In this document: positions 2,856-53,296 of the stretch, piece by piece
How positions within the stretch are numbered: the first letter of the stretch is position 1
Layout of the letters: the number at the start of each line of letters is the position of its first letter
DNA from: Rhizorhapis suberifaciens
Lineage (GTDB): Bacteria; Pseudomonadota; Alphaproteobacteria; Sphingomonadales; Sphingomonadaceae
Direction of reading: 5' to 3'
Assembly (NCBI RefSeq): GCF_014200045.1
Contig: NZ_JACHOV010000006.1
Coordinates: 1 to 64,000, forward strand
Length of the DNA stretch: 64,000 nt
Notes under the pieces: generated by a model
Database searches by the model: none
The model's input: the letters and a program-made list of their open reading frames with translations, nothing else
Told to the model about the DNA's origin: nothing
Made by a program: the position numbers and the translations under genes

Positions 2856-3794
2856 TCAATCTGCCCAAGGATCAGATGAGGCCAGTGCCACCACATCATC
2901 GATGGAGAGCAAGGTTGGCGGAGAGAGAGGGAATTCGCCCGCGGCCGTCAGGGAGAGCAAGGCACCGATGTGCTCTGCTATGGTAGTCGCAGAATAGGCC
3001 ATCGGGAACGCGTCGATGGTCTCCCGCGCGGTAGGTGGAAAATAGCGTGCCCGGAAGCCGGGCTTGAAAACGGAATCCCAAATATTGAGCGATTGGCCTC
3101 CAGTTTCCGACTTCCCGCTGAAGATGGCATAGCTCGGCAAGGCTTCGGGCCGGTCGACGAGGGCGCGATGCACGAACTCGTCGACCTTCTCCAGAACGAT
3201 GCTCTCGGCGCCCGCGTCACGGACTTGGCGGGCCGAAGCGAATAGCGCATACGCGCCGTCTAGTGATCCGCCGACCCGGCGGCCGTCACCTCCCTGCGGG
3301 GTGTAGCCCAAATGGGCCATGACCCGGAATCCTTCCCGCGTCAGCCGCTCGACAATGGCGATGACCGTTTCCGAATGGACCTCGAGCTTGACGACATCGG
3401 CGCCGGCACGACGCATCCGGTCGGCGCTGCGAACCGCGATTTCGCCGTTCACCACGGACCCGTCCGGCATGTCGCCAACGATGTAGGGAGCGTCGTCCGG
3501 AAAAAGCTGCTTCGCTCGGTGAGAGACCTCCTTGACCAGACCAGCCATGATTTCGAGGAACAGGGCTTGCTCCCCCTTCGCCAGCCGGGTGCTCTCACGC
3601 CCCAGATGCGTCATCAGATAGGAATCGGAAACCATGAGGCAATCCAGCCGGATGCCCATCTGGAGGAGGGGATTGTCCGTCATGGCCCTGGCCACAGCTT
3701 CGACCTCATAGTCGCGATAGAGGTTCAGCTTGATCGGGCGGCGGCTATCGTCTTTGGGATCGCGAGTGGGCGCGATAAGTTCGGACATCAGCAT
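2856..3794 (-). CDS. PanB-like ketopantoate hydroxymethyltransferase homologue in siderophore locus
   Basis: The 312-residue protein aligns by eye with PanB (3-methyl-2-oxobutanoate hydroxymethyltransferase), a Mg-dependent TIM barrel of the PEP/pyruvate superfamily. The PanB metal and catalytic residues are matched: D57 (VSDS), D108 (GDMPDGS), K136 and E138 (VKLEV), H161 (AHLGYTPQ) and E202 (LEKVDE). The region corresponding to the IGIGAG substrate loop is changed to AIFSGKSETGG, there is a roughly 12-residue insertion before D108, and the C-terminus is longer. It is the last gene of the NIS siderophore operon, 52 bp after the exporter, with AAGGAG before ATG 3794. In staphyloferrin B loci this slot holds SbnG, a citrate synthase built on a related barrel. 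I infer that this enzyme supplies a hydroxycarboxylate building block; a true pantothenate role is less likely in this context. Confidence 0.8.
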   Translation of the reverse strand: MLMSELIAPTRDPKDDSRRPIKLNLYRDYEVEAVARAMTDNPLLQMGIRLDCLMVSDSYLMTHLGRESTRLAKGEQALFLEIMAGLVKEVSHRAKQLFPDDAPYIVGDMPDGSVVNGEIAVRSADRMRRAGADVVKLEVHSETVIAIVERLTREGFRVMAHLGYTPQGGDGRRVGGSLDGAYALFASARQVRDAGAESIVLEKVDEFVHRALVDRPEALPSYAIFSGKSETGGQSLNIWDSVFKPGFRARYFPPTARETIDAFPMAYSATTIAEHIGALLSLTAAGEFPLSPPTLLSIDDVVALASSDPWAD

Positions 3795-3846: not shown

Positions 3847-5031
3847 TTATTTCAGGGCGGCAGACCGGGTGAACGCCGTCGACCCGCGAAGCAGCATGAT
3901 CATGGCGGTGGTCAGAACCCCGCACAGCGCGGCGGTGAAGAACAGGGGGCCGATCCCGCCGCTGGCCGCGATCATGCCTCCCCCCACGCTTGCGGCGATT
4001 GTCGCCAGTTTGGCGCCGCTGTCGAACCAGCCGAAAGTCCGGCCAGCGCTGGCGTCTTCTATCGTTTCGGTGATCAGGGCATTGAGCGCGACATAGCCGA
4101 GCGTCATGCCCGCCCCCAGCGCGACCCGCGCCATCGCAAAAACGAGCAGCGACGTGGTGAGCGCCTGCACCGCGAGCATCCCCCCTACGATCAGGCATCC
4201 AGCGGCGAACCAGGGGGCGGGATCGCGATCGCGCAAGTGCCGGCCGAGCGGCAGGCAGGCGAACAGATAGACGATATGGGGCAAGCCGAAGAGCCATCCG
4301 GCCGTGCCGGCGCCGATGCCGAACGCTTTCATGCTGTACGGCACGAGGAACGGGAATGTGGAAATCATGGCCAGCGTGAACCCCGTCTGGCCGGCCATGA
4401 TCGCGCCGCGCGAGAGCACTTGCCGGCCATGGGCACTCGGGGCCGCACCGTCCACGGCCGGAACAGTCCTGGGATCGCCTTTTGCCGGAAGGGGCAGCAG
4501 CATCAGGACGGCGATCATCGGCAGCAACGCCACGACGAGATAGACATTCTGTGGGACGATATGCCGATCGATCAGGAAGCCCACGGCCATCGGCGCCAGG
4601 ATGAGCGCGAGACGCGCGCTCGCCTGGGTCAGGTTCAGCGCTTGCGACAGTTCCTTGCGCGGCAAGGCTTCCGAGAGATAGGCGTTGCTGGCCGAGAAGG
4701 TGCCACCCAAGAGGCCTTGGAGGCAGAGCGCCACCACGAACAGCGGCAGCGATCCCGCGAGGCCGGCGATCAGGAAGCTGACGGCCAGCCCGATCTGCGC
4801 GCGCAGCAGCAGGGGCTTGCGGCCCCAGCGGTCGGCCAAACGGCCCCACAGCGGCGCGGAGATGGCAAGGCATGCGGTCGGCACGATATAGAGCCAGCCG
4901 ATCAGGCTCTCACTGGCATCGGGCGCAAGCCCGACGAGGATGAGGCCCAGAAAAGGCGGCAGGCCCATGGGACCAAACGCGCCCGCGAAATGGCACGCGA
5001 GAACAGTGGCCTTGATGCGGCCGGGGCTCAC
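3847..5031 (-). CDS. MFS transporter, probable siderophore exporter
   Basis: The 394-residue protein is almost entirely hydrophobic, with about 12 membrane segments. It has the MFS loop motif GRLADRWGRK near residue 65, as in the drug/H+ antiporter group. It starts with GTG at 5031, and its first bases overlap the stop of the upstream NIS synthetase (GTGA), so translation is coupled. Comparable genes (sbnD, pvsC) export the finished siderophore in NIS loci, and that is the most likely job here. Substrate specificity cannot be read from sequence. Confidence 0.85.
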   Translation of the reverse strand: MSPGRIKATVLACHFAGAFGPMGLPPFLGLILVGLAPDASESLIGWLYIVPTACLAISAPLWGRLADRWGRKPLLLRAQIGLAVSFLIAGLAGSLPLFVVALCLQGLLGGTFSASNAYLSEALPRKELSQALNLTQASARLALILAPMAVGFLIDRHIVPQNVYLVVALLPMIAVLMLLPLPAKGDPRTVPAVDGAAPSAHGRQVLSRGAIMAGQTGFTLAMISTFPFLVPYSMKAFGIGAGTAGWLFGLPHIVYLFACLPLGRHLRDRDPAPWFAAGCLIVGGMLAVQALTTSLLVFAMARVALGAGMTLGYVALNALITETIEDASAGRTFGWFDSGAKLATIAASVGGGMIAASGGIGPLFFTAALCGVLTTAMIMLLRGSTAFTRSAALK

Positions 5032-6827
5032 CGCCCAGCCTCGCCAAGGAGAAAGTTGGGCGCTGTATGCCCATAGGCCTTGTTGACGTCGGCAGCGCCG
5101 ATCGCCTCGCGGGGTTCCAGCGTTGCGGCGCGCAGGAGATGTTTGATCGGGAAAAGGCGCGCCTCCAGCAGCGCAGCGCGCAGCGGCCCGGACACGATGC
5201 CTTCGCCATCCATCCGGTCGAGTTGCCGCTCGACGGCCGCGCGCAACAGGTTTCGATAGGCGCCGGGCCTGCCCAGATGACGACCTAGCCCTTCGATGAC
5301 GGCGCCCAGATTGAGCTGGATCGTTATGGTGATCAGCATCTCAGCGATGGCTGCGGTATCGGTTTGGGTGATGCGCGCATCCTGCAGCCTGCCGATCCAG
5401 GCGTCCGCTCCGGGAAAAGCCGCAAGCAGGGCGGAAGCATCGATCCGGGGAGAATCGTTGTCCTTGAGCAGCAGCCGCAAGCCGCCCTCGTTCCGATCGA
5501 AGAGCACTACGGAATTCTGCTGATTGGCTTCGAGTTCGATGCCATAACGAGCCGCCAGGCGAAGGTGGACGCTCAGGAGCAGGTCGCAAAATTCGCCGAG
5601 GAACCGCTCAACGTCGCCCCGATAATACCGATCTGCCAGATGCAGCGCATAGGGACGGCCATCGGACATTGGCGCCATCATGGCCGCGACCGGCACCGGC
5701 TCGCAGCCGTCGAGTCCTTCGGGATAGCGGCGGACGATATAGGCGAGGAATCGCTCCCCGCGGTGATGCGCCCCGCCGCTTTCGTCAGTGAGGAGAAGCT
5801 TTGCCCGCAGCTCAGCGTCATCGGCCCGTATCGCCTCCAAGAGCGAATGGACGACATGGCCGTCGTTGATCGTGACCGGCTTGATTGCACGCAGGTTGAG
5901 ACGGCCGAGCGTGCTGATCGCGAGCGGAAGCTTGATATGGACACCAGGTTCTTCGACCACCGCCACGGCCCGCACCGAGAGCGTGGGAACGACTTCGAGA
6001 TAGTCCCGCGGCGCCATGTAGGCGCGATCGGCCATCCCCGCCTCGGCGAGGATCCGGGCCATTCTCTCGCCGCGCATGAACGGATGGACGGGCAGGAGCG
6101 CGTGCGTCTGCTCCAGCGCTGGATCGAGCCCCACATCGGCGAACGACGGCCAACGGGCAGGCACTTCACCTTGCACGGACAGACCGTCTCTGGGGAGGGC
6201 GAGCCAGGCTAGGCGGAACAACTGCTGATATTCCGGACCATAAGCGATGAGATCGTTGGCGGCAAAACCGTGCTTCGCCCGCGCTGTAGGATAGAATGGA
6301 TGATCGATGAAGGATGCCAACCTGTCGTTGGCAAGCATCTGCTTGTGCCATTCGGGATGGGCGGCCAGGCGTGTGGCGGCAAGCGGGGCGGTATCGCGGG
6401 CGGCGTCGCAGATGGCGCCCTGTTCGATAGCGGCCTGGCACTCGTCGAGAAAGGCGGAAATATTGCCGCTGTCCTCGCCTTCGAGCCCGGCCTTGATGAT
6501 CTCGAGGAACTCAGTGACGCTGTCGATGAGGCGCGCACCCTGCCGCGATACATGAACGAATGGCGGTGCGCAGACACGCCACGTCTGCATGAACCCGTCA
6601 GGCTCGACCGGCATGAAAAGCGTGCCGCCATCCGCGGCCTCATAGGCGAGATAGTGATCCGTCGGCGCGATCAGCCTGTCGAAGGGCGCGCTCTCGGCTC
6701 GAATGACCGTGCCGAGCGCGATTTCCCGATAGTTTTCCCGCACGAGGCAATCTGCCACGCGCCTCAGGATATAACGGCTGTGATCACGGACCGACGGCGC
6801 AGGTTTGACGGCGGTGGCGATGTTCAT
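5028..6827 (-). CDS. IucA/IucC-family NIS siderophore synthetase (first of two)
   Basis: The 599-residue protein has the IucA/IucC family layout: HPFYPTARAKHGF near residue 175 (ATP site), LLPVHPF near 240, KLPLAISTLGR near 300, and the FerR-like C-terminal half with EANQQNS and KDND. These enzymes adenylate a carboxylate such as citrate and condense it with an amine or alcohol in the cytoplasm. AGGAGAAAACGC precedes ATG 6827, 34 bp after the receptor gene. It overlaps the exporter by 4 bp. A second, only distantly similar synthetase lies at 10364-12064, so the product probably has two amide linkages made by separate enzymes. Which one acts first cannot be told. Confidence 0.92.
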   Translation of the reverse strand: MNIATAVKPAPSVRDHSRYILRRVADCLVRENYREIALGTVIRAESAPFDRLIAPTDHYLAYEAADGGTLFMPVEPDGFMQTWRVCAPPFVHVSRQGARLIDSVTEFLEIIKAGLEGEDSGNISAFLDECQAAIEQGAICDAARDTAPLAATRLAAHPEWHKQMLANDRLASFIDHPFYPTARAKHGFAANDLIAYGPEYQQLFRLAWLALPRDGLSVQGEVPARWPSFADVGLDPALEQTHALLPVHPFMRGERMARILAEAGMADRAYMAPRDYLEVVPTLSVRAVAVVEEPGVHIKLPLAISTLGRLNLRAIKPVTINDGHVVHSLLEAIRADDAELRAKLLLTDESGGAHHRGERFLAYIVRRYPEGLDGCEPVPVAAMMAPMSDGRPYALHLADRYYRGDVERFLGEFCDLLLSVHLRLAARYGIELEANQQNSVVLFDRNEGGLRLLLKDNDSPRIDASALLAAFPGADAWIGRLQDARITQTDTAAIAEMLITITIQLNLGAVIEGLGRHLGRPGAYRNLLRAAVERQLDRMDGEGIVSGPLRAALLEARLFPIKHLLRAATLEPREAIGAADVNKAYGHTAPNFLLGEAGR

Positions 6828-6861: not shown

Positions 6862-9024
6862 CTAGTCGATCGCGTATCGCAACGTGAGCATCACGGACCG
6901 CGGAGCGCCGGGCATGTTGAGGTTTCCGACGGTGCCGTGGGCCGATACGATGTAGTCGCGGTCGAAGATGTTACGGATGTTGACCTGCGCCTTGAACTTA
7001 CCCAGACGCGCCCATGCCATGGCATCGGCGGTCACATATTCGGGCAGAACGACGGTGTTCGCGAGATTGGCCTGACGATCGCCGACATAGTTGACGCCGC
7101 CGCCTAGGCCAAAGCGGTCTCCGAAATTCCGCATTAGCCAGAGGCTCGCACTGTGGGTTGGTGTCAGCGTGGGCCGATTGCCCTGAATGGGAACACCGGA
7201 ATCCAGTGCTGGGGATTTGGTGATGCGGGCATCGAGGTAAGCATAGCTGGCGATGGCCTGCCATCCTTGCGCCAGTTCCAGTTGCGCCGATGCTTCGATA
7301 CCGCGCGTGCGCTGTACGCCAACCGGCACGACCCTGAGCAGAACCGGATCAGTCGCCTTGATGTCCGAGCGCTTGAGGTTGAAGGCCGAGACCGTCGCCG
7401 AAAGCTTGCCATCGAACAGGTCGAACTTGGCCCCGATCTCGCGGTTGATCGTCTTTTCCGGTGCGATGTCCGCGCTGCTCGTCGAGAGAGCGAAAGTCTC
7501 GCCCGAAGGCTGGTAGGATTTATTCCAGGAGGCGTAGTAAGATTGGGTCGGCGTCGGTTGCCAGACAAGTCCGACGCGCGGGCTCCAGAAATTGTCTGTC
7601 CGCGCGAGGTCGGGCTGTCCCGCTATGCGCTGGTGGACTTCCTGGCGGAAGCGGTCATGCCGCAGGCCAGCAAGCACCTTCCACTGCTCGCCCAGCGAGA
7701 TCATGTCCTGGGCATAGAAACCGATAGTTTTGTAGACGCCCGTCCGGTGCGTGCTCGGATTGCCGGAGACTTCCAATGGCAGGACGGGCAGAACCGGGTT
7801 GAACAGATCGACCGCTAAGAGCGTTCCATCAGGAGCCCGTACAGCCGCATCGATCCGTCGCTCAAATTTGGACTGCCGGCCCGCTTCGAAACCCAGCAGC
7901 AGCTTGTGTTCCAGCGGCCCGGTGGAAAATTGTCCGGATAGTTCGAGCTGATTGAACCAGCCATGCTCGGTGCGATCGGTACTTTGGCGATTGAGCGTCA
8001 CCGTCCGCGCAGCTTCGTTGACGATATTCGGAATCGTATTCTGACGGTCGAGCGTATAGTCATAATAGCGGAATGCGTTGTGCAGCTTGAGCGTATCGCT
8101 GAACTCGTGGTCGAGCGTCGCGGTTGTCGACCACACTTCCGACTGGCTGAAGTCCACGTCCTTCCCGTTGGCCGCGCCATAATAGGTCGAGGCCGGCACA
8201 TCGACCGGGCGTCCCTGGAAGGCCGGGATGCCGTTATCGGTCAAACGGCGGTCGCGCAGATAGTCGGCTTGGAGCAGGATCCGGGTGCGGTCGCTTGGCG
8301 CGAAGAGCACCGACGGCGCGATGGCTTCGCGCTTGAGAAAACCCTGATCGCGATAGCTGTCCGACCGCTCGATGGCGCCCGTCAGACGGACCGCCACATC
8401 GTTGCCGGCGAAGACATGGCCAAGGTCGATCTCGCCGCGCTTGTCATCCCAACTGCCATAGCTGACGACGATTTCGCCGCCTTCCGTGCCCGGCTTCTTG
8501 GAAACACGGTTGATGAGACCGCCGGAGGAGCCGCGTCCGTAGAGAACGGAAGCCGGCCCTTTGAGAATCTCGATCCGCTCGATGTTCGACAGGTCGCGGA
8601 AATAGAGAGCGTCATCGCGCACGCCGTCGATGAAGAGATCGCCATAGGCGATATTGCCGCGGATCACGAACTGGTCGCGCTGACCGTCGCCGGTCGCCAT
8701 GCCGATGCCGGCCACGTTCTTGATCGCATCCTGCAACGACAAGGCACGCTGATCGCGCATCACCTGACTGGGGATGACGTCAATCGTCTGCGGGATGTCC
8801 CGCAGCGGCGCGTCGATTTTCAACGCCGTGGTGTCGGGGGTGCGATATTCAGGATTCGTGGCCGTCACCACGATGTCGTCGCGCCCCGAACCGGTTGCCG
8901 CTGCTTCGCCGTCCGCGCTCTCCGCGCCAATGGCCGGTGATGACGCCATCACCGCAAGCAAAGTCAGTATCGAGACGGTGCCGTATTTCCGAACGACACA
9001 GGTATTCATAGAAGTCGCAAGCAT
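6862..9024 (-). CDS. TonB-dependent siderophore receptor
   Basis: The outer-membrane receptor has 720 residues from ATG 9024. A signal peptide ending in SSPAIGA is followed by a TonB box (DDIVVTA) and a plug with LRDIPQTIDVIP and the GRGSSGGLINRVSK strand, as in FhuA/FpvA-type receptors. A 22-strand barrel follows, ending LRYAID with a terminal acidic residue. An in-frame upstream ATG at 9219 would add a stretch unlike a signal peptide and would run past the Fur-like box, so 9024 is preferred; 9009 is a further candidate. It lies inside the siderophore operon and should import the ferric form of the product. A Fur-like inverted repeat lies 24-40 bp upstream, so it probably has its own iron-repressed promoter. 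Confidence 0.93.
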   Translation of the reverse strand: MLATSMNTCVVRKYGTVSILTLLAVMASSPAIGAESADGEAAATGSGRDDIVVTATNPEYRTPDTTALKIDAPLRDIPQTIDVIPSQVMRDQRALSLQDAIKNVAGIGMATGDGQRDQFVIRGNIAYGDLFIDGVRDDALYFRDLSNIERIEILKGPASVLYGRGSSGGLINRVSKKPGTEGGEIVVSYGSWDDKRGEIDLGHVFAGNDVAVRLTGAIERSDSYRDQGFLKREAIAPSVLFAPSDRTRILLQADYLRDRRLTDNGIPAFQGRPVDVPASTYYGAANGKDVDFSQSEVWSTTATLDHEFSDTLKLHNAFRYYDYTLDRQNTIPNIVNEAARTVTLNRQSTDRTEHGWFNQLELSGQFSTGPLEHKLLLGFEAGRQSKFERRIDAAVRAPDGTLLAVDLFNPVLPVLPLEVSGNPSTHRTGVYKTIGFYAQDMISLGEQWKVLAGLRHDRFRQEVHQRIAGQPDLARTDNFWSPRVGLVWQPTPTQSYYASWNKSYQPSGETFALSTSSADIAPEKTINREIGAKFDLFDGKLSATVSAFNLKRSDIKATDPVLLRVVPVGVQRTRGIEASAQLELAQGWQAIASYAYLDARITKSPALDSGVPIQGNRPTLTPTHSASLWLMRNFGDRFGLGGGVNYVGDRQANLANTVVLPEYVTADAMAWARLGKFKAQVNIRNIFDRDYIVSAHGTVGNLNMPGAPRSVMLTLRYAID

Positions 9025-9047
9025 GTGCTGCCCCCCAATATATGCTA

Positions 9048-9064
9048 ATGCGAATCTTTCGCAT
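9048..9064 (-). promoter_or_regulatory. Fur-box-like inverted repeat upstream of receptor
   Basis: ATGCGAA and TTCGCAT form a perfect 7-bp inverted repeat around TCT. It sits directly before the TonB receptor start, in the 147-bp gap after the decarboxylase gene. Position and the GCGAA/TTCGC core fit an iron-responsive operator; Fur binding is inferred. Confidence 0.55.
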
Positions 9065-9170
9065 ATCTGGGCTGTTAGGGTAGCATTGCGATCGAAGTCA
9101 AGGACGGCGGCGAGGCCGCGCCGCATTTTGTGTCCGCCAAATAATTGAAAAGGTGAGCGGATTGCCGTGC

Positions 9171-10367
9171 TCATGCCCCTGCGTCGTCCAGATAGAGGCG
9201 CTCGGGGTGGGCGTGGCACAGGAAATCATGATGAGAGATGTCCCAGCCATAGGCGCCCGCCATGAGGAAGCAGACGAGATCGCCGATCCGTGCCCGCGCG
9301 ACGGGCACATCGCGGGCCAACACATCCTTGGGGGTGCATAGCTCGCCCGCGAGCGTCAGGTTGGTGTCGGTGCATTCGGGCCGAGGCCAGGGATGAGGCC
9401 AGGCATCGCGGGGCAGAATCACGAAAGGATGATTGTGCGCCCAGGAACTCGGCAGCCGGAAATGATGGGTGCCGCCACGCAACAAGGCGAAGGCACGTCC
9501 ATGGACGGCCTTGATGTCGAGAATCTCGCAGACATAGACGGCATGATAGGCAGCGAGAATCCGGCCGCATTCGAACTGCAGGTTCAGATCTCCTGCCACA
9601 TGTGGCGCGAGCGCTCGGGTGAAGCTTTCAACGTCGAACCGCCAGTCCGGGTCGCCATAATCGACGCCCCAGCCGCCGCCGAGATTGACTACCGCCAAGT
9701 CCAGACCATGTTCGTTCGCCCAGGACCGGGCGAGTTCCAGCTCCATCACGCAGAGCGCGGCATGTCCGGCGGCGTCGCGGTTGTTGGAGACCGTGTGGAA
9801 ATGGAATCCCTCGAACCGAAGCGCTGGGCAATGCGCCAGTAGCTTCAGGGCTTCGGGGATGTCGGATTGCGCGATGCCGAACTGGGTGGCCGCTCCTCCC
9901 ATCGTGAGAGTTGCTCCCGGCACCGGACCGGCAAGGTTCACGCGCAGCAATATGGGCAGCACCGCTCCCGCATCTGCCGCAACGGCGTTCGCAAGGCGTA
10001 ATGTATGCAGGCTTTCGACATGAAGCCGTTCGACACCCTGCGCCAGGATCAACTCAATATCCTGGCGCGTGCGCGCGGGCCCACCCATGATGATCCGGGC
10101 GTCGGCACCGACCGCATCGCGCACTTTCAGGATTTCGCCCGAGGAGGCGACTTCGAACCCGGCGACATGCGGGGCGAGCGTCTGCAATATCCGGGGGTCG
10201 TTGTTAGCCTTGACGGCGTAGAACAGTTCCGCCCGGCGCGGCAGCGATCGCGCGATGTCAAGCGCGTGACGGCGCAGGGCATCGAGATCATGCACGAAGG
10301 CGCAGATCGGCCCTTCATCGTCCACCACGGCGAAGACTTGTGCGACGCGCGGTCTCAGCAGCGTCAT
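9171..10367 (-). CDS. PLP-dependent decarboxylase, SbnH/PvsE type (diaminopimelate decarboxylase family)
   Basis: The product has 398 residues from ATG 10367. The alanine-racemase-fold barrel carries the PLP lysine K53 in FYAVKANND, then FHFHTVSNN and a GGGWGVDYGD glycine loop. The C-terminal beta domain has the ELCTPKDVL cysteine site and the AGAYGWDISH block. In staphyloferrin B synthesis the homologue decarboxylates a citryl-diaminopropionate intermediate, and in vibrioferrin synthesis it makes ethanolamine from serine. Because SbnA- and SbnB-like genes are present, I favour decarboxylation of a diaminopropionyl intermediate. The start overlaps the stop of the upstream synthetase (ATGA). 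Free diaminopimelate decarboxylase is unlikely in this context. Confidence 0.88.
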   Translation of the reverse strand: MTLLRPRVAQVFAVVDDEGPICAFVHDLDALRRHALDIARSLPRRAELFYAVKANNDPRILQTLAPHVAGFEVASSGEILKVRDAVGADARIIMGGPARTRQDIELILAQGVERLHVESLHTLRLANAVAADAGAVLPILLRVNLAGPVPGATLTMGGAATQFGIAQSDIPEALKLLAHCPALRFEGFHFHTVSNNRDAAGHAALCVMELELARSWANEHGLDLAVVNLGGGWGVDYGDPDWRFDVESFTRALAPHVAGDLNLQFECGRILAAYHAVYVCEILDIKAVHGRAFALLRGGTHHFRLPSSWAHNHPFVILPRDAWPHPWPRPECTDTNLTLAGELCTPKDVLARDVPVARARIGDLVCFLMAGAYGWDISHHDFLCHAHPERLYLDDAGA

Positions 10368-12064
10368 GACAGTGCCACCGTCCGTTGCGGCAGTGCATGT
10401 CCATCTCGGACGGCACGTCGGAGCGGATTGGGGATTTCGACATAATCGGGCCGTTCGCTCCGACGGGCGAAACAACTGGTGAAATTCGCTTTGGCGGGCA
10501 GGGTTTCCGCTTCGAGAAGCCACGTGATGAGGGTGGCCATCTCCCTGTCCTCGTTGGCCGTGGACAATGCTTCCGCAATGACCCCCCACAGGTCGCCTTC
10601 CGGCGCATCAGCCAGACGCGAGACTGCCGCGACCACATGGTTCAACTGATTGCTGACCAGGTAGTAGACTAGACGCTGGCGTGCTTCCGCAGCGGGGAAG
10701 AATACCGATGGGTCGAGTTCGAGATCGGGCGCAGCGTGCTCGAAGCGCTCGCGGTCGATGCTGACCCCTTCCAGGTCGCGCACGATCAGGCGAGCCGGAT
10801 TTCCCCGGTCCAGCGCCAAAAGGCTGTTCTGGCTGTGCGCTTCGAGGCTGACGCCGGTTCGGGCGAACAGCCGAAGCGGCGGGAGTGTGGCCGTCTGAAC
10901 GTAAGCACGTAGCCAGGCTTGCGCCGCGGCAGGATTGGAAAGATCGCAGCCCATCGCCGCCAGCATGGGGCGGCCATCGTGCGGCGACGGTTCGAGCAGG
11001 CCAGCCAGTACGAATGCATCTCGCGCCGGAGCCTCCCGGAGGACGACACCGGTGATCGCTTCGAGGCCAGGACGATCGATCCAGACAGCGCCGGGCTCAT
11101 CGAGCGTGTCGAGGCCGCAGGCGGTAACCTGTTCCGCAATCGCCGCAAGCGCCCGCCCAGCCGCCATGCTTCGCGCGATCTGGTCACGCGGGTTGGTGCG
11201 CGCGAAATTGGTGATCCGCGCTGCGATCGGCAGCTTGACGAAAATGTTCGCGCCTGGCGCGAACACCGTGCGGACCGACGAGGTCGGCTGCATCGTCGCG
11301 CCGTTGGGCAGGGTAAGGATCGCGCGTCCCCGCTCGACGAGATCAGCGAATGATGGATCGTTTTCCAGGCGGGCGGCCTGCCAGGGGTGGCTCGGAATCA
11401 GAAGGCGGCCCCCGATGGCCTTTTCCGGCAGGCCGGAAAGATCGGTGAGGATGCGGTTCACCCGCTCCTTGGCCTGCCCGTCGCGCCACAGCGCCGCCCC
11501 GACGTCGGCCTCGGCGATGATCCAGCGCAACTGGAAACCACGGGCGCGCTCCGGCGCATAACAGTCGATATCGTCCGCTGAAAAGCCATCTATGCTCTTG
11601 GCGAATGGATGGAATGGATGCCCGTGCCAGAGGCTCTGCTCCAGTCCCATGGGGGAAAGATCGACAGGACGCGCCGCGCAGGCCAACGCATGCTCTTCCG
11701 CGCCATTGAGAGCCTTGATGAGGCGTTCCCTTACCGCCGGCGAGACGGAGCCGTTCTCCTGGGCAAGCGCTTCCGTCATCAGGTTCGCAACCGGAATGGG
11801 GTCGTTGGCAACTGTTGCGGATCCATCTGCCCCTTCAATCAATACCGGCAGCCGCCAACGATGAAAGCCTCCCGGCGATGCCTGCAGGCACGAGGCGCGC
11901 AGCCTGTTCGCACCCACGTTCAAGGTGCAGGCTTCACCCTCGACCGGCACGGATTCGGTCATGCGTTCCCGCAGCCATGTATTGAGCAGGCGCTCCATTG
12001 CGATGCCGGCGCGGATGGCGGCGGCATCTTCGACTGTTCTCTCCACAGGCAGGGGCATCGTCAT
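10364..12064 (-). CDS. IucA/IucC-family NIS siderophore synthetase (second of two)
   Basis: The product has 566 residues from ATG 12064. Family marks are GHPFHPFAKSIDGF (ATP binding, near 155), LIPSHPWQ near 230, SVRTVFAPGANIFVKLPI near 265, and EAHSQNSLLALD with RDLEGV in the C-terminal half. It should adenylate a carboxylate and form an amide or ester with a diamine or amino acid. It is more compact than the synthetase at 5028-6827 and clearly from another subgroup. It couples by ATGA overlap to the decarboxylase, which suggests that its product feeds that enzyme. A later ATG at 12058 is possible; the earlier in-frame ATG at 12115 adds an unlikely leader. Confidence 0.92.
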   Translation of the reverse strand: MTMPLPVERTVEDAAAIRAGIAMERLLNTWLRERMTESVPVEGEACTLNVGANRLRASCLQASPGGFHRWRLPVLIEGADGSATVANDPIPVANLMTEALAQENGSVSPAVRERLIKALNGAEEHALACAARPVDLSPMGLEQSLWHGHPFHPFAKSIDGFSADDIDCYAPERARGFQLRWIIAEADVGAALWRDGQAKERVNRILTDLSGLPEKAIGGRLLIPSHPWQAARLENDPSFADLVERGRAILTLPNGATMQPTSSVRTVFAPGANIFVKLPIAARITNFARTNPRDQIARSMAAGRALAAIAEQVTACGLDTLDEPGAVWIDRPGLEAITGVVLREAPARDAFVLAGLLEPSPHDGRPMLAAMGCDLSNPAAAQAWLRAYVQTATLPPLRLFARTGVSLEAHSQNSLLALDRGNPARLIVRDLEGVSIDRERFEHAAPDLELDPSVFFPAAEARQRLVYYLVSNQLNHVVAAVSRLADAPEGDLWGVIAEALSTANEDREMATLITWLLEAETLPAKANFTSCFARRSERPDYVEIPNPLRRAVRDGHALPQRTVALS

Positions 12065-12122
12065 CAGACGGGTCTCTCGATGGGGGTGAAGAAAGGAAGG
12101 CGGCGGCCCGTGCATGCAGGCC

Positions 12123-12139: not shown

Positions 12140-13150
12140 CTAGAGGAGGGGCAAGACCGTGCCGATATTCCTGTCCTCAGCCCTGCCGAGGATCGCCTTT
12201 GCGCAGGCTATATCATCGATCGCCATGCCCATCGGATTGAGCAGGATGATTTCGTCATCCGTCTCACGGCCGGGCCTGGACCCGACGATGATCTCACCAA
12301 GCTCCGCGTGCAGTTGCTCGCGCGAGAACTCACCCGCTTCGACAAGCAAGTTGATGATCTTCTTCTCGCGGTTCGACTGGTCCCAGTCATCGACAACAAC
12401 CTTGTCGACCTTAAGGAACACGTCGCGTTCCACGTCCATGATCGAGACGTTGGCTAGGAATGTGCCCCTACTGAGCCAGTCGAAGGCTAGATAGGGGCTA
12501 TCGGTCACCGTGCAGGTGATCACAACCGGGCAGTCGCGAACCGCTGCTTCGGCGCTATTCGCAACGATAACGATGGGGTCGCCAAAGCGCTGCCGTAGCC
12601 GCGCGGCAAGCGCGTTCGCCGCATCTTCGCGCAGATCGAACAGCCGCAGTGCCTTCACGTCCGCGAATTGCTCGAGCAGCATCTGGGCCTGTCGCTCGGC
12701 GATCGGCCCGCAGCCGATAATGGCGGCTTCATCAAAGCCTTTCCGCGCCAGATGCCGAGTGGCGACGCCGGTGACGGCGGCGGTCCGCATCGCGCTCAGG
12801 AGTCCGCCTTCCATGATCGCCATGGGATAGTTGGTCTCCGGATCGTTGAGCACGATGACGGCACTCGCCCGCTCCATCCCTCTTCTGGCCGGGTTGTCGT
12901 GCTTGGAGCCAATCCATTTGAGCCCGGCAACGGGTTGCTCGCCGCCGATCCAAGCCGGCATGGCGATAATCCGATCCGCAATATGTTGCGTGCGGGGGCT
13001 ACGCAGATAGGGTTTGAGGGGCTGCACGAAGTCGCCGGCGGCATGGCTGCGGAAGCCCGCCTCGATCGCGCTCATATAGAGGTCCGAATGGTCCCCGCCG
13101 AGCGCGGCGACATCCGAACGGGACAGATATCGCAGAGTAGCCGTGTTCAT
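12140..13150 (-). CDS. sbnB: SbnB-like dehydrogenase (ornithine cyclodeaminase family)
   Basis: The 336-residue protein belongs to the ornithine cyclodeaminase/mu-crystallin family. Marks include LMIEGG-like AIMEGGLLSAMRTAA, the Rossmann loop AIIGCGPIAERQ, and CTVTDSPYL. In Staphylococcus the homologue SbnB, of the same length, oxidises the SbnA product N-(1-amino-1-carboxyl-2-ethyl)-glutamate with NAD+ to L-2,3-diaminopropionate and 2-oxoglutarate. The ATG at 13150 overlaps the stop of the SbnA-like gene (ATGA), exactly the sbnAB pairing. An upstream in-frame ATG at 13384 lies inside that gene and is rejected. Function as diaminopropionate synthase is inferred with good confidence from this pairing. 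Confidence 0.88.
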   Translation of the reverse strand: MNTATLRYLSRSDVAALGGDHSDLYMSAIEAGFRSHAAGDFVQPLKPYLRSPRTQHIADRIIAMPAWIGGEQPVAGLKWIGSKHDNPARRGMERASAVIVLNDPETNYPMAIMEGGLLSAMRTAAVTGVATRHLARKGFDEAAIIGCGPIAERQAQMLLEQFADVKALRLFDLREDAANALAARLRQRFGDPIVIVANSAEAAVRDCPVVITCTVTDSPYLAFDWLSRGTFLANVSIMDVERDVFLKVDKVVVDDWDQSNREKKIINLLVEAGEFSREQLHAELGEIIVGSRPGRETDDEIILLNPMGMAIDDIACAKAILGRAEDRNIGTVLPLL

Positions 13151-14241
13151 AGCGCTGCACCCTCCGACTGGGAATTGGCCGACAAGACATGAGCCTCCGG
13201 CATCCATGAAGACGCCGCGGCGGTGGGGCGCCGAGATTGCCACGCCAACGCGGGCCGTTCGCCCAGCCGGCGGAACGACGCCGCGAAGGGTCTGGTCTGG
13301 CGACGTTCCTCGGCCGGCCAGGCGGGATCGTAGACCGTATCGAGATAGCGTTCGCCGCGATCGGGCAGCAGGGTGACGATGCATGATCCCTTCCTAAGGT
13401 TCGGGATCAGCTTGGTGATCGCCGCCATCACCGAGCCCGAAGAGCCGCCCGCTAATATGCCCTGGCTCTCCGCGAGGCGGCGGCAGGCTAGCGTCGATTC
13501 CCAGTCCGTCGCATAGATGACGGCGTCCACCTCGGGCAGGGCGAGCTGCTCCGGCACGCGGCTCGCGCCGATACCCGGGATCTGCCTGTTGCCGCCCGCT
13601 CCCCCGAAGATAACGGACCCTTCCAGATCGACAGCCACGACCTCGATGTTCGGCCAGCGCTCGCGCAGGCGGCGCGCCAGACCCATTAATGTTCCGCAGG
13701 TCGAAACGGCCGCTACCACATGCGTGGGTTCCACCGGCATCTCGCGGACGATTTCCTCGCCGATCCCGTTATAATGGGCGCGCCAGTTATCCGGATTAGC
13801 ATATTGGTTGAGCCAGACCGCGCCTGGAATGGTGCGCACCAGTTCATCCACCCGCCGGATGCGAGTGTGCAGATAGCCGCCGCCCTCGTCCTTGTCGGTG
13901 ACGAGGTCGATATGGCCGCCGAACGCTTCAATGAGGCGGCTGTTGGCAGGAGCGAGGTTGGGATCGACGACCGCCGTGAAGGGGATGCCAACCCGCTTGG
14001 CAATAATCGCGAGCGCTATGGCGAGGTTGCCGGATGAACTCTCCACCAAGTGGCTTTCCGACGTGATCCTGCCCGTCGCCAGCGCCTGCGACACCATATA
14101 GTGCGCGGTGCGATCTTTCACGCTACCGCCGACATTCAGCATTTCCAGCTTTGCGAATACTGGAACCACCTCTGGTGGAAACATTCGGTCAAGGGCAACA
14201 AGAGGTGTGTTGCCGACAGACAGTTCTGCTGAAAATTGCAT
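13147..14241 (-). CDS. sbnA: SbnA-like PLP synthase (cysteine synthase family)
   Basis: The product has 364 residues from ATG 14241, which has a strong GGAAGGAG site. It shows the cysteine-synthase/SbnA fold: GNTPLV, the PLP lysine K42 in NVGGSVKDR, the ESSSGNLAIALA phosphate region, VSTCGTLMG and GGSSGSVMAA. SbnA joins O-phospho-L-serine and glutamate into the precursor of 2,3-diaminopropionate; the ESSSGN form resembles SbnA rather than housekeeping CysK. The last 40 residues after the core are arginine- and alanine-rich and look like an unstructured extension. It is the first gene of the leftward operon and is divergent from the ATP-grasp ligase. Confidence 0.88.
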   Translation of the reverse strand: MQFSAELSVGNTPLVALDRMFPPEVVPVFAKLEMLNVGGSVKDRTAHYMVSQALATGRITSESHLVESSSGNLAIALAIIAKRVGIPFTAVVDPNLAPANSRLIEAFGGHIDLVTDKDEGGGYLHTRIRRVDELVRTIPGAVWLNQYANPDNWRAHYNGIGEEIVREMPVEPTHVVAAVSTCGTLMGLARRLRERWPNIEVVAVDLEGSVIFGGAGGNRQIPGIGASRVPEQLALPEVDAVIYATDWESTLACRRLAESQGILAGGSSGSVMAAITKLIPNLRKGSCIVTLLPDRGERYLDTVYDPAWPAEERRQTRPFAASFRRLGERPALAWQSRRPTAAASSWMPEAHVLSANSQSEGAAL

Positions 14242-14345
14242 GACAGCTCCTTCCAATTGGATGGGCGTAGGGCGCGATGGCCGCTGCGGGAATTTAGGCC
14301 GGGTAGTGATTTTTCTGCCTGCTCCAATGACATAGAGCGATTCGC

Positions 14346-14366
14346 TATTGCGAGTCAAATGCAATA
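14346..14366. promoter_or_regulatory. Fur-box-like inverted repeat TATTGC-N9-GCAATA
   Basis: A perfect 6-bp inverted repeat with a 9-bp centre lies in the 186-bp divergent region between sbnA and the ATP-grasp gene. Together with the repeat before the receptor it suggests iron-dependent control of both arms of the locus. The two sites share TTGC/GCRA-like half sites but are not identical, so the regulator (Fur or another iron sensor) is inferred. Confidence 0.5.
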
Positions 14367-14427
14367 ATGGCAGATAGCTTGCCCACGGGCGACACTCGCA
14401 GAAACGCGGACCACGGAAGGATTGCCA

Positions 14428-15639
14428 ATGCCGACCCTGATTTTGCTAGCCCATGTGCCGACAGACGCGGTCAACGAAGGCTTTCTCCCGGCGGCGCGAC
14501 GTCTCGGCCTCAGTGTGACCCTGCTTACCGACCGCGCCGAAGCACATCGACATTACTTCTCAGCTGAGGATAGGCCCACCTATCCTGACAGAATCATCGA
14601 ATGTGACGTGTTCAATCCGGTCTCGGTCATCAACGAAATCAGTCGCCATGCCGAGCGACCCGCCGCCATCTTCTCGAACAGCGATCATCTCCAAACCAGC
14701 ACAGCGCTGTCGGCCGATTATTTCGGTCTGCCCGGCAAGGACTGGAAAGTCACCTACCGAGCCAAAAACAAAGCAGCGATGCGCGAATGCCTACAAGATC
14801 AGGGGATGGATCTGCTGTGGCACGCCGTGGTGACGAACGAAGACGAAATCGCTCGTCTTTCCACTGTTCCCTTTCCTTGTGTGCTCAAACCTCGCGAAGG
14901 CGTCGGTAGCCAACTCGTGCGGCTATGCGAGAATGAGCATGCGCTGGTCTCGCACGCCAAGCATGTCTGGAACCTGGACGCCAGCCGCGTCATGCTGATC
15001 GAGGAATATATCGCGGGGGACCTCTACACGCTCGAAACCTTGGGCGATGGAACAGACATTGTCGTTCTTGGAGGATTTCATGTCGCGCTGGGGCCGCCGC
15101 CAAATTTCGTCGAAATGGAGGGCCGCTGGGGTAACTGGCTCACGCCCTCCCAAGAGGCCGAAGTGCTACGTCAGATCGAAGCGGTTGGGGTCGGATTTGG
15201 ATCGTGCCACACCGAGTTCGTGCTGACGGAAAAGGGGCCACGGCTCATTGAAATCAACTACCGGACGGTCGGTGATCACATGGAGTTCATGCTGGAGCAC
15301 ACCCTCGACGTCGCGCTGTTCGAAAAAATTCTGCGCCTTCATCTCGGCGAGCAACTCGGTGCGATGCCGTTGGCAGGCAGGGCAGCCGCGATCCGATATT
15401 TCCCAGCTGACAGGTCGGGACGGATTGTCTCCGCGCCAGGGGGTTTTCTTCGCAGGGATAACGAATTGCGCGTCGAATATCGTTCGCTCCGAAGCCTTGG
15501 CGAACGTGTGGCCGTAACGAACTCCAACAAGGACTATCTGGGCGTTCTGAGCGTCAGTGCGCCTAACAACGCCATGCTGGAGAATGCGTTGAAGGAGGCG
15601 AGCGCCACGCTGGTTTGGGATATTGATTTGGAAGGTTAA
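14428..15639 (+). CDS. ATP-grasp carboxylate-amine ligase, PvsA-like
   Basis: The 403-residue protein has the ATP-grasp layout. An N-terminal Rossmann-like domain is followed by CVLKPREGVGSQLV (ATP-binding lysine and glycine loop, near 155), LIEEYIAGDLYTLE (near 190) and the metal-binding end PRLIEINYRTVGDHMEF near 275. Such enzymes join a carboxylate to an amine through an acyl phosphate. A ligase of this class (PvsA) occurs in vibrioferrin loci, and here it would add a third acyl or amino-acid linkage. ATG 14428 is preferred because GGAAGG lies 8 nt upstream; a TTG 6 bp earlier is in frame. It is transcribed away from the rest of the cluster. Confidence 0.82.
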   Translation: MPTLILLAHVPTDAVNEGFLPAARRLGLSVTLLTDRAEAHRHYFSAEDRPTYPDRIIECDVFNPVSVINEISRHAERPAAIFSNSDHLQTSTALSADYFGLPGKDWKVTYRAKNKAAMRECLQDQGMDLLWHAVVTNEDEIARLSTVPFPCVLKPREGVGSQLVRLCENEHALVSHAKHVWNLDASRVMLIEEYIAGDLYTLETLGDGTDIVVLGGFHVALGPPPNFVEMEGRWGNWLTPSQEAEVLRQIEAVGVGFGSCHTEFVLTEKGPRLIEINYRTVGDHMEFMLEHTLDVALFEKILRLHLGEQLGAMPLAGRAAAIRYFPADRSGRIVSAPGGFLRRDNELRVEYRSLRSLGERVAVTNSNKDYLGVLSVSAPNNAMLENALKEASATLVWDIDLEG

Positions 15640-19164: not shown

Positions 19165-19382
19165 GCCAAACCTTGCCTTTCGGTCATGCGGGGTGAAATC
19201 GGCTGCGACCTAGCCGCAGCGCGGTCCGCTTGTCGCGCTACGAAACACTGTTCCAGGAGCATGAACAAAAGTCAGATCATCGACGGACAAGAAGTTGCCC
19301 CATCCCTCTGCTATCTGTGACGCCAATCTCCGCGCCTGATCGCGCCGACAACCGAGACTTTCCTAAAGAAGGCAAGCGCCCG

Positions 19383-22300
19383 ATGACAAAGACCGCAACG
19401 ACGCTGGATGACAAATATCTGCAGGAAACCGGCAGGGTCCTTCTGTCGTCCAATCAGGCCCTGGTGCGCCTGCCGCTCGACCAGTCCCGGCGCGACGCCG
19501 CAAGGGGCATGAAGACCGCTGGCTACATATCGGGATATCGAGGCTCGCCGCTCGGCGTGTACGACGCCGCCCTGTGGGCCGCCCAGAAACATCTCGACGC
19601 GCACGCCATCATGTTCGAGCCTGGCCTCAACGAGGAACTGGCCGCCACCGCCATTCGCGGAACCCAGCAACTCGCCTGGTTTGGAAAATCCGATTATGAG
19701 GGTATTTTCGGCCTCTGGTACGGCAAGGGGCTGGGGTTGGATCGCGCGAACGAGGCGCTCAAGCTCGGCAATATGGAAGGGTCCTCGGCCACCGGCGGGT
19801 TCCTCGTGGTTGCCGGCGACGATCATGGCGGCAAGTCCTCTGCCACTGCGCATCAGTCGGAACATGCGCTGATCGCCAGCTTGATCCCCACCCTCTATCC
19901 GGCAACCACGGGCGAGATGCTGGAATATGGCATGTTCGGCTGGGAAATGTCGCGCTGCAGCGGTGCCTATGTCGGCCTGAAATGCATTACAGACACGCTA
20001 GACCTGACCGCATCGGTCGAATTGCCGGACATTCACCGCGTTTACTCCAAGCCGGATGACATGACGATGCCGCCCGACGGCCTCAATCTCATCAAGGGCA
20101 TGACGCCCCTGCGCATGGAAGAGATGCTGGTCAATTATCGCCTGCCTGCGGCAGAGGCGTTCGCGCGGGTCAACCGCATCGACCGGACCCCGATCGACGG
20201 CGAACGTCGCGTCCTGGGCCTGGTCGCCGCTGGCAAGGCCTATCTCGACCTGCGCCAGGCAATGGTTGACCTGGGCCTCAGCGAAGAAAAGTGCCGCGCG
20301 CTCGGCATTCGTCTCTACAAGCCGGGCCTCATCTGGCCGATGGAGCGCGAAGGCGCGCTGGCGTTCGCGTCGGGTCATCGCGCGCTGCTGGTCGTCGAGG
20401 AAAAGCGGCCAGTGATGGAAGACCAGCTAGCCCGCTATTTCTATGCGCTCGATGCTGATCGCCGCCCCGCGATCCTGGGCAAGCAGGACCTGGCCGGAAA
20501 GCCGATGCTGCCCGCAATCGGCGAACTCAATCCGCAGCTGGTGCGCAGGGCGCTGCGCGATGCGCTGGTCCAGATCGGCATCGAGGATGAGGATGTCGAG
20601 AAGCGTTTCGCCTATTTCCACGACCTGGAAGGGCAGGCCATATTGATCGGCGGCGGCGGCAAATATCGTCCCGCCTTTTATTGCTCGGGCTGCCCGCACA
20701 ACACGTCGACCAAGATTCCCGATGGCAGCATCGCTATCGCGGCGGTAGGCTGTCAGGGTCTGGCTGCCTATGTGATGCCCGAACGTCGCACGATGCTGCC
20801 TGTTGGCATGGGTTCCGATGGCATGCCGTGGGTATCGGTCGGGAAATTCGTGGAAATGCCACACGTTTTCCAGAATATGGGCGACGGCACCTATTCCCAT
20901 TCCGGTATCCTGGCGATCCGCGCCGCTGTCGCCGCCAAGGCGAACATGACCTTCAAGATCCTGTTCAACGATGCGGTGGCGATGACGGGTGGCCAGCCGG
21001 TCGAGATGCATATCTCGCCCATCGACATGCTGAACCAGCTGGTGTCGGAGCAGGTCTCGCCGGTGCTGCTGGTGTCGGACGATCCGGAAAAATATGCGCG
21101 GTCCAAACTGCCCGAAGGCGTCGAAGTCTTCGATCGCGACATGATGGATATGCTCCAGCGCCGCCTGCGGACACAGAAGGGCGTCTCTGCTATCGTGTAT
21201 GAGCAGACCTGCGCCACGGAGAAGCGCCGCCGCCGCAAGCGCGGGTCCTATCCCGATCCCGACAAGCGCGTGTTCATCAACCAGGATGTCTGCGAAGGCT
21301 GCGGCGATTGCTCGGTCAAGTCGAACTGCGTCAGCATCACGCCGCTGGAAACCGAATTTGGTCGCAAGCGCGCGATCGACCAGTCGACCTGCAACAAGGA
21401 TTTCAGTTGCGTGAAGGGCTTCTGCCCGTCCTTCGTGACGGTACAGGGCGCCAAGATCGCGACCCATGTGTCAGGCGATGCAGCGCGCATCGACGCCATG
21501 ATCGCGGCGCTTCCCACGCCGGAAATCCATGTGCTGGGTGAAGAATGCTATAACATCCTTGTCGGCGGGATCGGCGGCACCGGGGTGCTGACTGTCGGCG
21601 CGATTCTGGGCATGGCGGCCCATCTGGAGGGCAAGGGCTGTAGCGTCCTCGACCTCACTGGCATGGCGCAGAAGGGCGGGGCGGTGACAAGCCACATCCG
21701 CATCGGCCATTCGCCTGAGACTATCTACGCCGCGCGCCTGGGCATCGGTGCGACCGACGTGATTCTCGCTTGCGACATGATCGTCGGATCGGGCGCCGAC
21801 GTGCTCAAGAGCATCCGGCCTGGCCATACCGCCGCTGTCGTCAACCAGGACGTCACGCCTACCGGCGAGTTCCAGACCAACCGAAATCTCGACCTGGGCG
21901 AAGAGGCGATGGAGGCCACGATCCTCAAGGCGCTGCGGGGCGGGGCCTATCTGCCCTTCCACGCCTCCCGCCTGGCGACTGACCTGATCGGCGACAGCAT
22001 CGCGACCAACATCATGATGGTGGGCTATGCCGCGCAAAAGGGCCTGCTCCCGGTCAGTGTCGCTTCCATCGAGGAAGCGATCAAGCTGAACGGAACATTC
22101 GTGAAGGGCAATCTGCGCACCTTCGCGCTCGGTCGCCTCGCCGCGTACGATCCAGGGGGGCTCGCCCGCGAAATCGGCGCTGCAACGGAACTACCGAGGC
22201 TCGACACTGTCGATGCGGTCCTAGAAAGCCGTGGCCACCTGCTCGCCGACTATCAGAACCAGGCATATGCCGACGGCTACGCCAGCTTCGTGCGGGACAT

Positions 22301-48375: not shown

Positions 48376-48419
48376 GTTTATGAAGGATTCCGAATCACAG
48401 GTCCGGCCATGCCCTCATC

Positions 48420-50907: not shown

Positions 50908-50942
50908 TCCTTACAATACAGAGCAAATAGGTAAGTGGGTCT

Positions 50943-52834: not shown

Positions 52835-53091
52835 TCAGACGATCTCCAAAGGCGGTAGCTCAAAAACGAACTCGTTGTTGAACTCATCGGCTCCATTAAA
52901 GAGCAGCGATTAGCATGACCTTCAGAAATCCCAATTCCTATCTGCCATTATTTGAGAAATATGCCATTATGTCTAGCAACTCAGCCTCAGACAGCGGGCG
53001 TCTTTCAATAATTTTTAGTTGAACTGTGCGCGAGGCACGTTGAAGCGTCATGGTTTCTTGCCTGTAATGAGCGCGCAGAGTCAATTCAAAA
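52835..53091. promoter_or_regulatory. AT-rich promoter region of the polyol operon
   Basis: The 257 bp upstream of the dehydrogenase are AT-richer than average and contain no credible gene. A promoter for the leftward operon is expected here; no clear operator is visible. To the right the island debris begins. Confidence 0.4.
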
Positions 53092-53271
53092 TTATTTCGT
53101 TAAGTAACAGTGTCTTGCGATTCGTCCGACGAGCAGTTGATCCGAGGCAGCGATCAGCCACGCTGCTGTGGCGATGATTTGCTCGAAGTGTTTGGCGAGG
53201 CGGCGGTTGCGGTGGGGCCGGGCGAGCGTGCGCTTGACAGCAAGCCCGCCGTCGCGGTGCTGTCGGCGGTT
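53092..53271 (-). pseudogene. IS5-type transposase C-terminal remnant
   Basis: The minus-strand frame reads RQHRDGGLAVKRTLARPHRN, then RRLAKHFEQIIATAAWLIAA and LLVGRIAR, which matches the end of IS5/IS4-type transposases (VERTFAWLxRxRRLxxDxE pattern, with the catalytic Glu region already altered). Only the last 60 residues exist. No inverted-repeat ends could be recognised. Confidence 0.6.
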
Positions 53272-53296
53272 ATAGGCAATATGGTGAGACCCGGCT

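Follow-up and report, generated by a model that had tools for sequence, protein, structure and literature searches.

A PanB-like aldolase presumably in place of SbnG in a mosaic siderophore locus of Rhizorhapis suberifaciens: a candidate citrate-forming enzyme

The window, the whole stretch of 64,000 nucleotides from the alphaproteobacterium Rhizorhapis suberifaciens that was analyzed, carries near its start a siderophore locus of nine genes (Table 1). Eight of these lie on the minus strand and follow each other in the direction of transcription as SbnA, SbnB, NIS synthetase 1 (NIS1), PLP decarboxylase, TonB-dependent receptor, NIS synthetase 2 (NIS2), MFS exporter and a PanB-like aldolase, here called PanBl. 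Their spacing suggests that the run from SbnA to PanBl forms one transcript; the gap between the MFS gene and PanBl amounts to 52 bp, and the gene beyond PanBl (1106-2575) is encoded on the opposite strand. The open reading frame of PanBl coincides exactly with the interval given in Table 1, it starts with ATG and encodes 312 amino acids, and the ribosome-binding-like motif AAGGAG is located just 5' of the start codon. A scan for promoters and terminators around PanBl gave matches at chance level. The initial annotation correctly placed PanBl at the end of an operon for NIS synthetases, exporter and receptor, while it omitted SbnA, SbnB, the SbnH-type decarboxylase and the ATP-grasp ligase. 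Sphingomonas pokkalii has all nine genes in an identical arrangement, with the ATP-grasp gene at the same place. A block around the palindrome between sbnA and the ATP-grasp gene (ATGACATA...GATTCGCTATTGCGAGTCAA) is common to both species when compared by eye, with the final bases of the palindrome differing in S. pokkalii, and this palindrome is a possible candidate for an iron-regulator site, that is, an iron-responsive operator.

Table 1. Genes and sequence features of the siderophore locus in the window.
Feature	Position	Strand	Assignment and evidence
PanB-like aldolase (PanBl)	2856-3794	-	Last gene of the putative operon; PF02548 86.2 bits; below the TIGR00222 and NF001452 cut-offs
MFS exporter, PvsC type	3847-5031	-	PF07690; 41% to C. 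necator pHG1 (tblastn/blastp)
NIS synthetase 2 (NIS2), PvsB type	5028-6827	-	PF04183 and PF06276; 42% to C. necator pHG1
TonB-dependent siderophore receptor	6862-9219 (ORF as listed; start probably downstream)	-	TIGR01783 over cut-off; 57% to pHG1 receptor
PLP decarboxylase, SbnH type	9171-10415 (ORF open to 10589, start uncertain)	-	Best PDB match 6knh, 372 bits; 59-61% to Agrobacterium/Methylocystis sbn decarboxylases
NIS synthetase 1 (NIS1), SbnE/AcsD type	10364-12115	-	Among the proteins compared, closest to that of gene five (SbnE slot) in the Agrobacterium sbn locus; best PDB matches AcsD, IucA
SbnB (2,3-diaminopropionate and 2-oxoglutarate synthesis)	12140-13150	-	TIGR03944 398 bits, cut-off 326.9 (searched as ORF 12140-13384)
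SbnA (2,3-diaminopropionate synthesis)	13147-14241	-	TIGR03945 418 bits, cut-off 350 (searched as ORF 13147-14364)
Imperfect palindrome TTGC-N9-GCAA, 17 bp	14348-14364		Promoter region between the divergent sbnA and ATP-grasp genes; conserved in part in S. pokkalii
ATP-grasp ligase, PvsA type	14422-15639	+	Divergent from sbnA; 55% to C. necator pHG1

Judged by sequence similarity, the locus is mosaic: staphyloferrin-B genes (sbnA, sbnB, sbnE-like, sbnH-like) stand alongside vibrioferrin-type (Pvs) genes, and SbnG is absent. SbnA, SbnB, NIS1 and the decarboxylase are nearest to sbn proteins of Agrobacterium or Methylocystis (61, 63, 41, and 59-61%, respectively), while the ATP-grasp ligase, NIS2, the MFS protein and the receptor are, YR710 (see below) aside, nearest to the Pvs-type proteins of plasmid pHG1 of C. 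necator (55, 42, 41, and 57%); nearest here means among the proteins compared, which came from one Agrobacterium locus in full and from parts of the Methylocystis, C. necator and Sphingomonas sp. YR710 loci. The staphyloferrin-B-like loci on alphaproteobacterial plasmids (Agrobacterium, Rhizobium, Methylocystis) share with the window SbnA, SbnB, an SbnE-type NIS synthetase and an SbnH-type decarboxylase; the window differs from them by having two NIS synthetases instead of three and no SbnG-type aldolase, and by carrying PvsA-, PvsB-, and PvsC-type genes together with PanBl in their stead. The third NIS synthetase and SbnG were missing in that only two IucA/IucC matches were found genome-wide, as also in the other two sphingomonad genomes that carry PanBl, and no SbnG-like tblastn match occurred in the first 20 kb of the window. 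In the excerpts of the sources considered here, 6knh is SbnH (PMC7139808), and a staphyloferrin-B-like locus is also described for Methylobacterium aquaticum 22A (PMC9301485). Compared with the Pvs loci, the window adds sbnA and sbnB and shows another arrangement. Elsewhere in the window an ORF of 1217 amino acids (19230-22883), by eye a fused indolepyruvate-type ferredoxin oxidoreductase-like protein, adjoins CoA-transferase-like and enoyl-CoA hydratase-like genes, and the stretch 48000-54000 has a G+C content of 0.51-0.55 in 2-kb windows compared to 0.57-0.65 elsewhere and is possibly acquired.

The sole Pfam match of PanBl is PF02548 (ketopantoate hydroxymethyltransferase, KPHMT), which spans residues 49-241, and since its score of 86.2 bits stands against a cut-off of 28.7, the resemblance to PanB is not due to chance. 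The NCBIfam models of PanB, TIGR00222 (60.3, cut-off 207.55) and NF001452 (79.4, cut-off 272), are missed by far. The solved structures nearest to PanBl by sequence are KPHMTs, and a Foldseek search with a weak AlphaFold2 model calculated from three sequences (mean pLDDT 58.6, C-terminal third unusable) placed KPHMT chains at the top with TM-scores of approximately 0.5-0.6, followed by the PEP mutase/isocitrate lyase superfamily. SbnG and PanBl both reside on metal-using 2-oxoacid aldolase-type barrels, but SbnG belongs to the HpcH/HpaI family (PF03328) and PanBl to PF02548, which is another protein family; PF03328 gave no Pfam match in PanBl, and BLAST of PanBl against SbnG-like proteins returned no usable similarity (best E-value 0.11). 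The dN/dS ratio of PanBl and the S. pokkalii copy is 0.12 (NG86).

The genome of R. suberifaciens (G000) encodes a canonical panB elsewhere (G000:C5:189570-190343; PF02548 345 bits), which passes both PanB models (TIGR00222 305.8, NF001452 357.3) and which is 28.3% identical to PanBl. For a wider comparison, 94 loci with a PanB-level ORF were collected, of which 18 were omitted from alignment and tree (10 holding PanBl, 8 duplicates) and 76 were kept; these 76 PanBs are canonical by exclusion, with model scores taken for the copy of the own genome alone, and some of them are near-identical and some have long branches. PanBl is approximately 28% identical to these 76 proteins. In a maximum-likelihood tree of 81 proteins, comprising the 76 PanB-level proteins and the five members of the PanBl group found in this work, the PanBl group is split off by a branch with 100/100 support, and the panB of the own genome (L001) lies deep among the other PanBs. 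In line with the initial annotation, PanBl is therefore not nested inside housekeeping PanB: a canonical panB elsewhere, model scores below the cut-offs and a separate clade led to rejection of PanBl as the housekeeping enzyme and support that it is a paralogue distinct from it. Genome G032, taken as Sphingomonas sp. YR710, likewise contains a second match that is PanB-level by profile score. Two further matches were rejected as PanBl: the one in G047:C9, a PanB-level gene that precedes a gene resembling panC by eye, groups with other PanBs (L005), and so does the one in G028 (L006).

The residues D57, D108, K136, E138, H161, and E202, which we take to be the metal-binding and catalytic residues of PanB, are identical in all five PanBl members and in all 76 other PanB-level proteins, in agreement with the initial annotation, which was also right in stating that PanBl differs from PanB elsewhere. 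Six positions are invariant in the five members of the group and occupied differently in the others: N24 (T in 72/76), L86 (H in 74, L in one), D111 (aromatic in 76/76), F225 (G in 76/76), S235 (V or I in 76/76), and N237 (V in 76/76). PanBl I224, S235, and N237 align with I202, I212, and V214 of Escherichia coli KPHMT (1m3u), so that from this hydrophobic active-site set only I224, one of three, is kept. According to the part of PMC7610986 drawn on here, I202A and I212A in the E. coli enzyme enlarge the active site and widen the nucleophile scope, V214G suits the reaction of 2-oxoisovalerate with erythrose, and the enzyme can also work without folate, namely as a class II aldolase that depends on metal and accepts several 2-oxoacids and aldehydes. 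By its sequence, PanBl keeps the machinery for metal-bound 2-oxoacid chemistry, with two active-site positions turned polar, which fits a more polar substrate without naming it. PanBl thus resembles KPHMT in PF02548 membership, in its six catalytic residues and in its nearest structures by sequence and fold, and it differs in identity, in model scores, in its separate clade, in the changed active-site positions and C-terminus, in its siderophore context, and in that the genome holds a second copy.

The gene order of related loci is informative on the role of PanBl. In Sphingomonas sp. YR710 the order is receptor, ATP-grasp ligase, NIS2, MFS protein, a different NIS synthetase, a different decarboxylase, and PanBl, and SbnA and SbnB were not found in the stretch read. 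The first six of these genes are collinear with those of C. necator pHG1 (receptor 55, ATP-grasp 45, NISa 45, MFS 45, NISb 39, and decarboxylase 52% identity), while the seventh slot is occupied by an SbnG-type aldolase in pHG1 and by PanBl in YR710; in both loci the decarboxylase gene and the seventh gene overlap, by 14 bp in pHG1 and, with the start codon chosen, by 20 bp in YR710. The best PDB match of the pHG1 aldolase is 4tv5/4tv6 with 226 bits, the next protein scoring 150, and in an excerpt of PMC7139808 4tv5 is the Staphylococcus aureus enzyme SbnG, which forms citrate from oxaloacetate and acetyl-CoA for staphyloferrin B. In this pathway, as far as covered by the excerpts of PMC9301485 and PMC7139808, SbnA and SbnB provide diaminopropionate and 2-oxoglutarate, SbnG provides citrate, and SbnE, SbnF, and SbnC catalyze the condensations. 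The initial annotation had compared PanBl with SbnG by analogy only, and the comparison holds literally, as related loci carry an SbnG-type aldolase, once in the very same slot; the gene arrangement of the window itself differs from that of pHG1.

Across Pvs-type loci (including C. necator pHG1, Pantoea soli, Vibrio, and Piscirickettsia), ATP-grasp, NISa and MFS genes occur in the same order as in the sphingomonad loci, extended in YR710 to NISb and the decarboxylase; the PvsD-type NIS synthetase and PvsE-type decarboxylase are of Pvs type in YR710, whereas the corresponding enzymes of the window more closely resemble the SbnE and SbnH types. The Pvs loci have an SbnG-type aldolase or none, and the sphingomonad loci have PanBl instead. 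Our sample comprised 11 plasmid loci with a PvsA-type ATP-grasp ligase, taken from the top 12 of 276 records (H82 repeats the plasmid of H81). ATP-grasp, NISa, NISb, and decarboxylase genes stand in one order in all 11, with the MFS gene between both NIS genes in seven. An SbnG homologue is present in four (C. necator pHG1, Pantoea soli, and two Rhodococcus loci) and was not detected in the stretch fetched for the other seven. It follows the decarboxylase in pHG1 and in the two Rhodococcus loci, while in Pantoea soli it is the first gene, before the ATP-grasp gene, and not the last. The sbn-type sample consisted of four loci from the 15 best of 1752 records. The Agrobacterium, Methylocystis, and Rhizobium plasmid loci read sbnA-sbnB-NIS-MFS-NIS-NIS-aldolase-decarboxylase, with the SbnG homologue between the third NIS gene and the decarboxylase in these three of the four, and the Agrobacterium aldolase has 4tv5 as best PDB match; in the Bacillus badius locus the stretch covered shows no SbnG homologue, which indicates that a dedicated citrate synthase is optional. 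PanBl was found in none of the 11 Pvs-type and none of the four sbn-type loci, compared to all three sphingomonad loci, in which SbnG-like tblastn matches were absent (0/3). Because the samples are small and contain near relatives, the argument draws its strength from the identical slot rather than from statistics.

Some of these plasmid loci deserve mention in their own right. On pHG1 of C. necator H16 five integrase/recombinase genes lie upstream of a complete vibrioferrin-type locus (L121:6690-17054), the last gene of which encodes the SbnG-type citrate synthase homologue, and the sbn-type locus of Bacillus badius pPM400 (L135:5957-15608) ends in a ParB-N-domain gene, presumably SbnI-like. 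Streptomyces, Embleya, and Nonomuraea carry actinobacterial Pvs-type loci (L126-L129) with an ATP-grasp ligase, two NIS synthetases and a decarboxylase on large plasmid records without gene tables, and an SbnG homologue was not detected in the stretch covered.

Five members of the PanBl group were found, three in sphingomonad siderophore loci and two in alphaproteobacterial sensor operons. Besides the protein of the window, the former are those of S. pokkalii (L052, 83% identity) and Sphingomonas sp. YR710 (L053, 74%), and the latter those of the genomes G544 (46%) and G694 (41%). With the own genome included where drawn, PanBl was counted in 2/98 genomes of relatives, 2/396 of the order, 3/385 of the class, and 1/398 of the phylum; further samples gave 0/321 in another class and 1/340 when the own class was sampled again, and the small orders around G544 and G694 (1/2 and 1/7) returned the same two members again. 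The larger samples overlap in part and five to seven first-look candidates were scored per genome, and genomes counted without PanBl are therefore soft negatives. Members are clearly set apart by score, with at least 247 bits compared to at most 63 for the rest using a three-sequence profile, and with at least 514 compared to at most 79 using a five-sequence profile built from the members themselves. A scan of genome contigs with two N-terminal peptide patterns yielded two PanBl loci, and since only these patterns were used, divergent relatives may have been missed. Viral contigs contained no member, and plasmids yielded PanB-level matches only (at most 37% among the matches listed). In the sampled, partly overlapping genomes the PanBl group is thus rare and patchy. 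Titles and abstract starts of the open-access literature among the matches listed describe no PanB homologue in siderophore synthesis, which is no proof of absence.

In G544 and G694 the PanBl relative is encoded between a PF04392 substrate-binding protein and a SpoIIE phosphatase, and the PF04392 gene is preceded by that of an MFS protein that has an additional N-terminal portion (HAMP in G544). A Cache domain is found within the SpoIIE protein in G544 and in a separate upstream protein in G694. The operons (L092:3606-10497 and L093:3102-10007) look like a signaling module with an enzyme inside, and an RsbW-like kinase is seen by eye near the one in G544. None of the other genes of the siderophore set of the window was found around these relatives (10.7 and 20 kb), which carry the same active-site residue changes as the siderophore members. 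The group is consequently not defined by siderophores, and the occurrence of PanB homologues beside IucA/IucC genes, as implied by the initial annotation, applies to the three sphingomonad loci but is not exclusive. Members in both contexts have an MFS transporter nearby, and one might speculate that this fits a secreted carboxylate.

The context supports well that PanBl, as a member of a distinct group derived from PanB, is an aldolase dedicated to a siderophore building block and sits in the slot of SbnG. Beyond this, we slightly favor the reading that PanBl is a PanB-barrel, metal-dependent aldolase that replaces SbnG and would supply the citrate unit for a siderophore of hybrid staphyloferrin-B/vibrioferrin type. 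Given its sbn/Pvs mosaic, the locus probably yields a citrate siderophore intermediate between staphyloferrin B and vibrioferrin, and the slot equivalence with an SbnG homologue as well as the accompanying AcsD/SbnE-like synthetase favor ordinary citrate, which is the most likely product of PanBl at about an even chance. AcsD and IucA, the best PDB matches of NIS1, act on citrate. Mechanistically, a metal held by D57 and D108 would chelate the carboxylate and keto group of oxaloacetate, which would be polarized by K136 and H161; E202 may serve as base on acetyl-CoA, and the acetyl enolate would add to C2 to give citryl-CoA, the hydrolysis of which would release citrate. NIS1 would then join citrate to diaminopropionate supplied by SbnA and SbnB, the SbnH-type decarboxylase would trim the citrate-diaminopropionate product, and the ATP-grasp ligase and NIS2 would add the remaining arms, e.g., an amino acid and 2-oxoglutarate, the ATP-grasp ligase presumably doing the work of the missing third synthetase. 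The MFS protein would export the siderophore and the TonB receptor would recover the iron complex. Sequence shows the family, the conserved catalytic residues, the active-site changes, the separate clade and the slot equivalence with an SbnG homologue, while we infer the substrates, the citrate product, the mechanism, the part played by each residue and the sequence of assembly steps. A dedicated citrate enzyme would uncouple siderophore supply from the TCA cycle. An additional citrate source may exist: among ten HpcH/HpaI matches elsewhere in the three sphingomonad genomes, four of them in the own genome, eight genes were compared and L113 alone, located in the own genome approximately 120 kb from the operon (C6:136284), resembles the pHG1 SbnG homologue (31%).

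Several observations limit the citrate reading and define the alternatives. The new invariant residue D111 close to D108 seems not obviously suited to tricarboxylate binding and would count against citrate. PanBl could instead make another carboxylate, such as a hydroxymethyl or aldol product of a 2-oxoacid (2-oxoglutarate, oxaloacetate, or pyruvate) that replaces citrate or 2-oxoglutarate and represents a new siderophore unit. The intact set of PanB-type metal and catalytic residues, the two positions turned polar and the range of 2-oxoacids and aldehydes that, in the part of PMC7610986 consulted, the E. coli enzyme takes without folate would all suit such an activity, but the slot is that of the SbnG-type homologue in the collinear locus, related sbn loci carry an SbnG-type gene, and neither NIS1 (AcsD/SbnE-like) nor NIS2 (PvsB-like) departs from the ordinary type, and we therefore regard this as unlikely, though worth keeping in view. 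The initial annotation had gone further by proposing a recruited building-block enzyme for a backbone not seen before; recruitment agrees with a paralogue at this position, and its place in a siderophore locus makes PanBl a likely building-block enzyme, whereas the slot and the AcsD/SbnE-like synthetase point to ordinary citrate, so that a new siderophore backbone is possible but less likely than citrate.

The SbnG slot need not be filled, given that seven of 11 Pvs-type and one of four sbn-type loci are without a detected SbnG homologue, and a new gene at this place could act otherwise. PanBl may thus make no building block at all but be a degradative, regulatory or sensing aldolase carried along with the operon, a view to which the Pvs-type loci without SbnG and the two of five members in SpoIIE phosphatase/MFS/PF04392/Cache operons lend some weight. 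That PanBl stands last in three siderophore loci, which come in two arrangements, together with its low dN/dS and its intact catalytic residues, speaks against this view and renders it improbable. The sensor-operon context is nevertheless the main point that the siderophore reading leaves without explanation, and as these relatives share the active-site changes the ancestral activity of the group may differ. Least probable is an iron-regulated second ketopantoate hydroxymethyltransferase for pantothenate and CoA, which PF02548 membership and the conserved catalytic residues would permit: the canonical panB scores 305.8 in TIGR00222 (cut-off 207.55) against 60.3 for PanBl, and the separate clade and the positions changed in all five members oppose it.

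Returning to the citrate reading, citrate synthases are of several origins, the GltA type, the Re type and SbnG. That PanBl is a PanB-fold citrate synthase of independent origin, providing citrate outside the TCA cycle, and that the relatives in the sensor operons perform the same chemistry for a secreted or sensed carboxylate, is a tentative proposal to which we give somewhat less than an even chance. Family models label PanBl-type proteins as a pantothenate enzyme, and genome mining would accordingly misread both the gene and its pathway. If PanBl makes citrate, it would represent a non-orthologous displacement of the dedicated siderophore citrate synthase in the same slot and a further scaffold for citrate synthesis; if it makes another product, the siderophore itself would be new.
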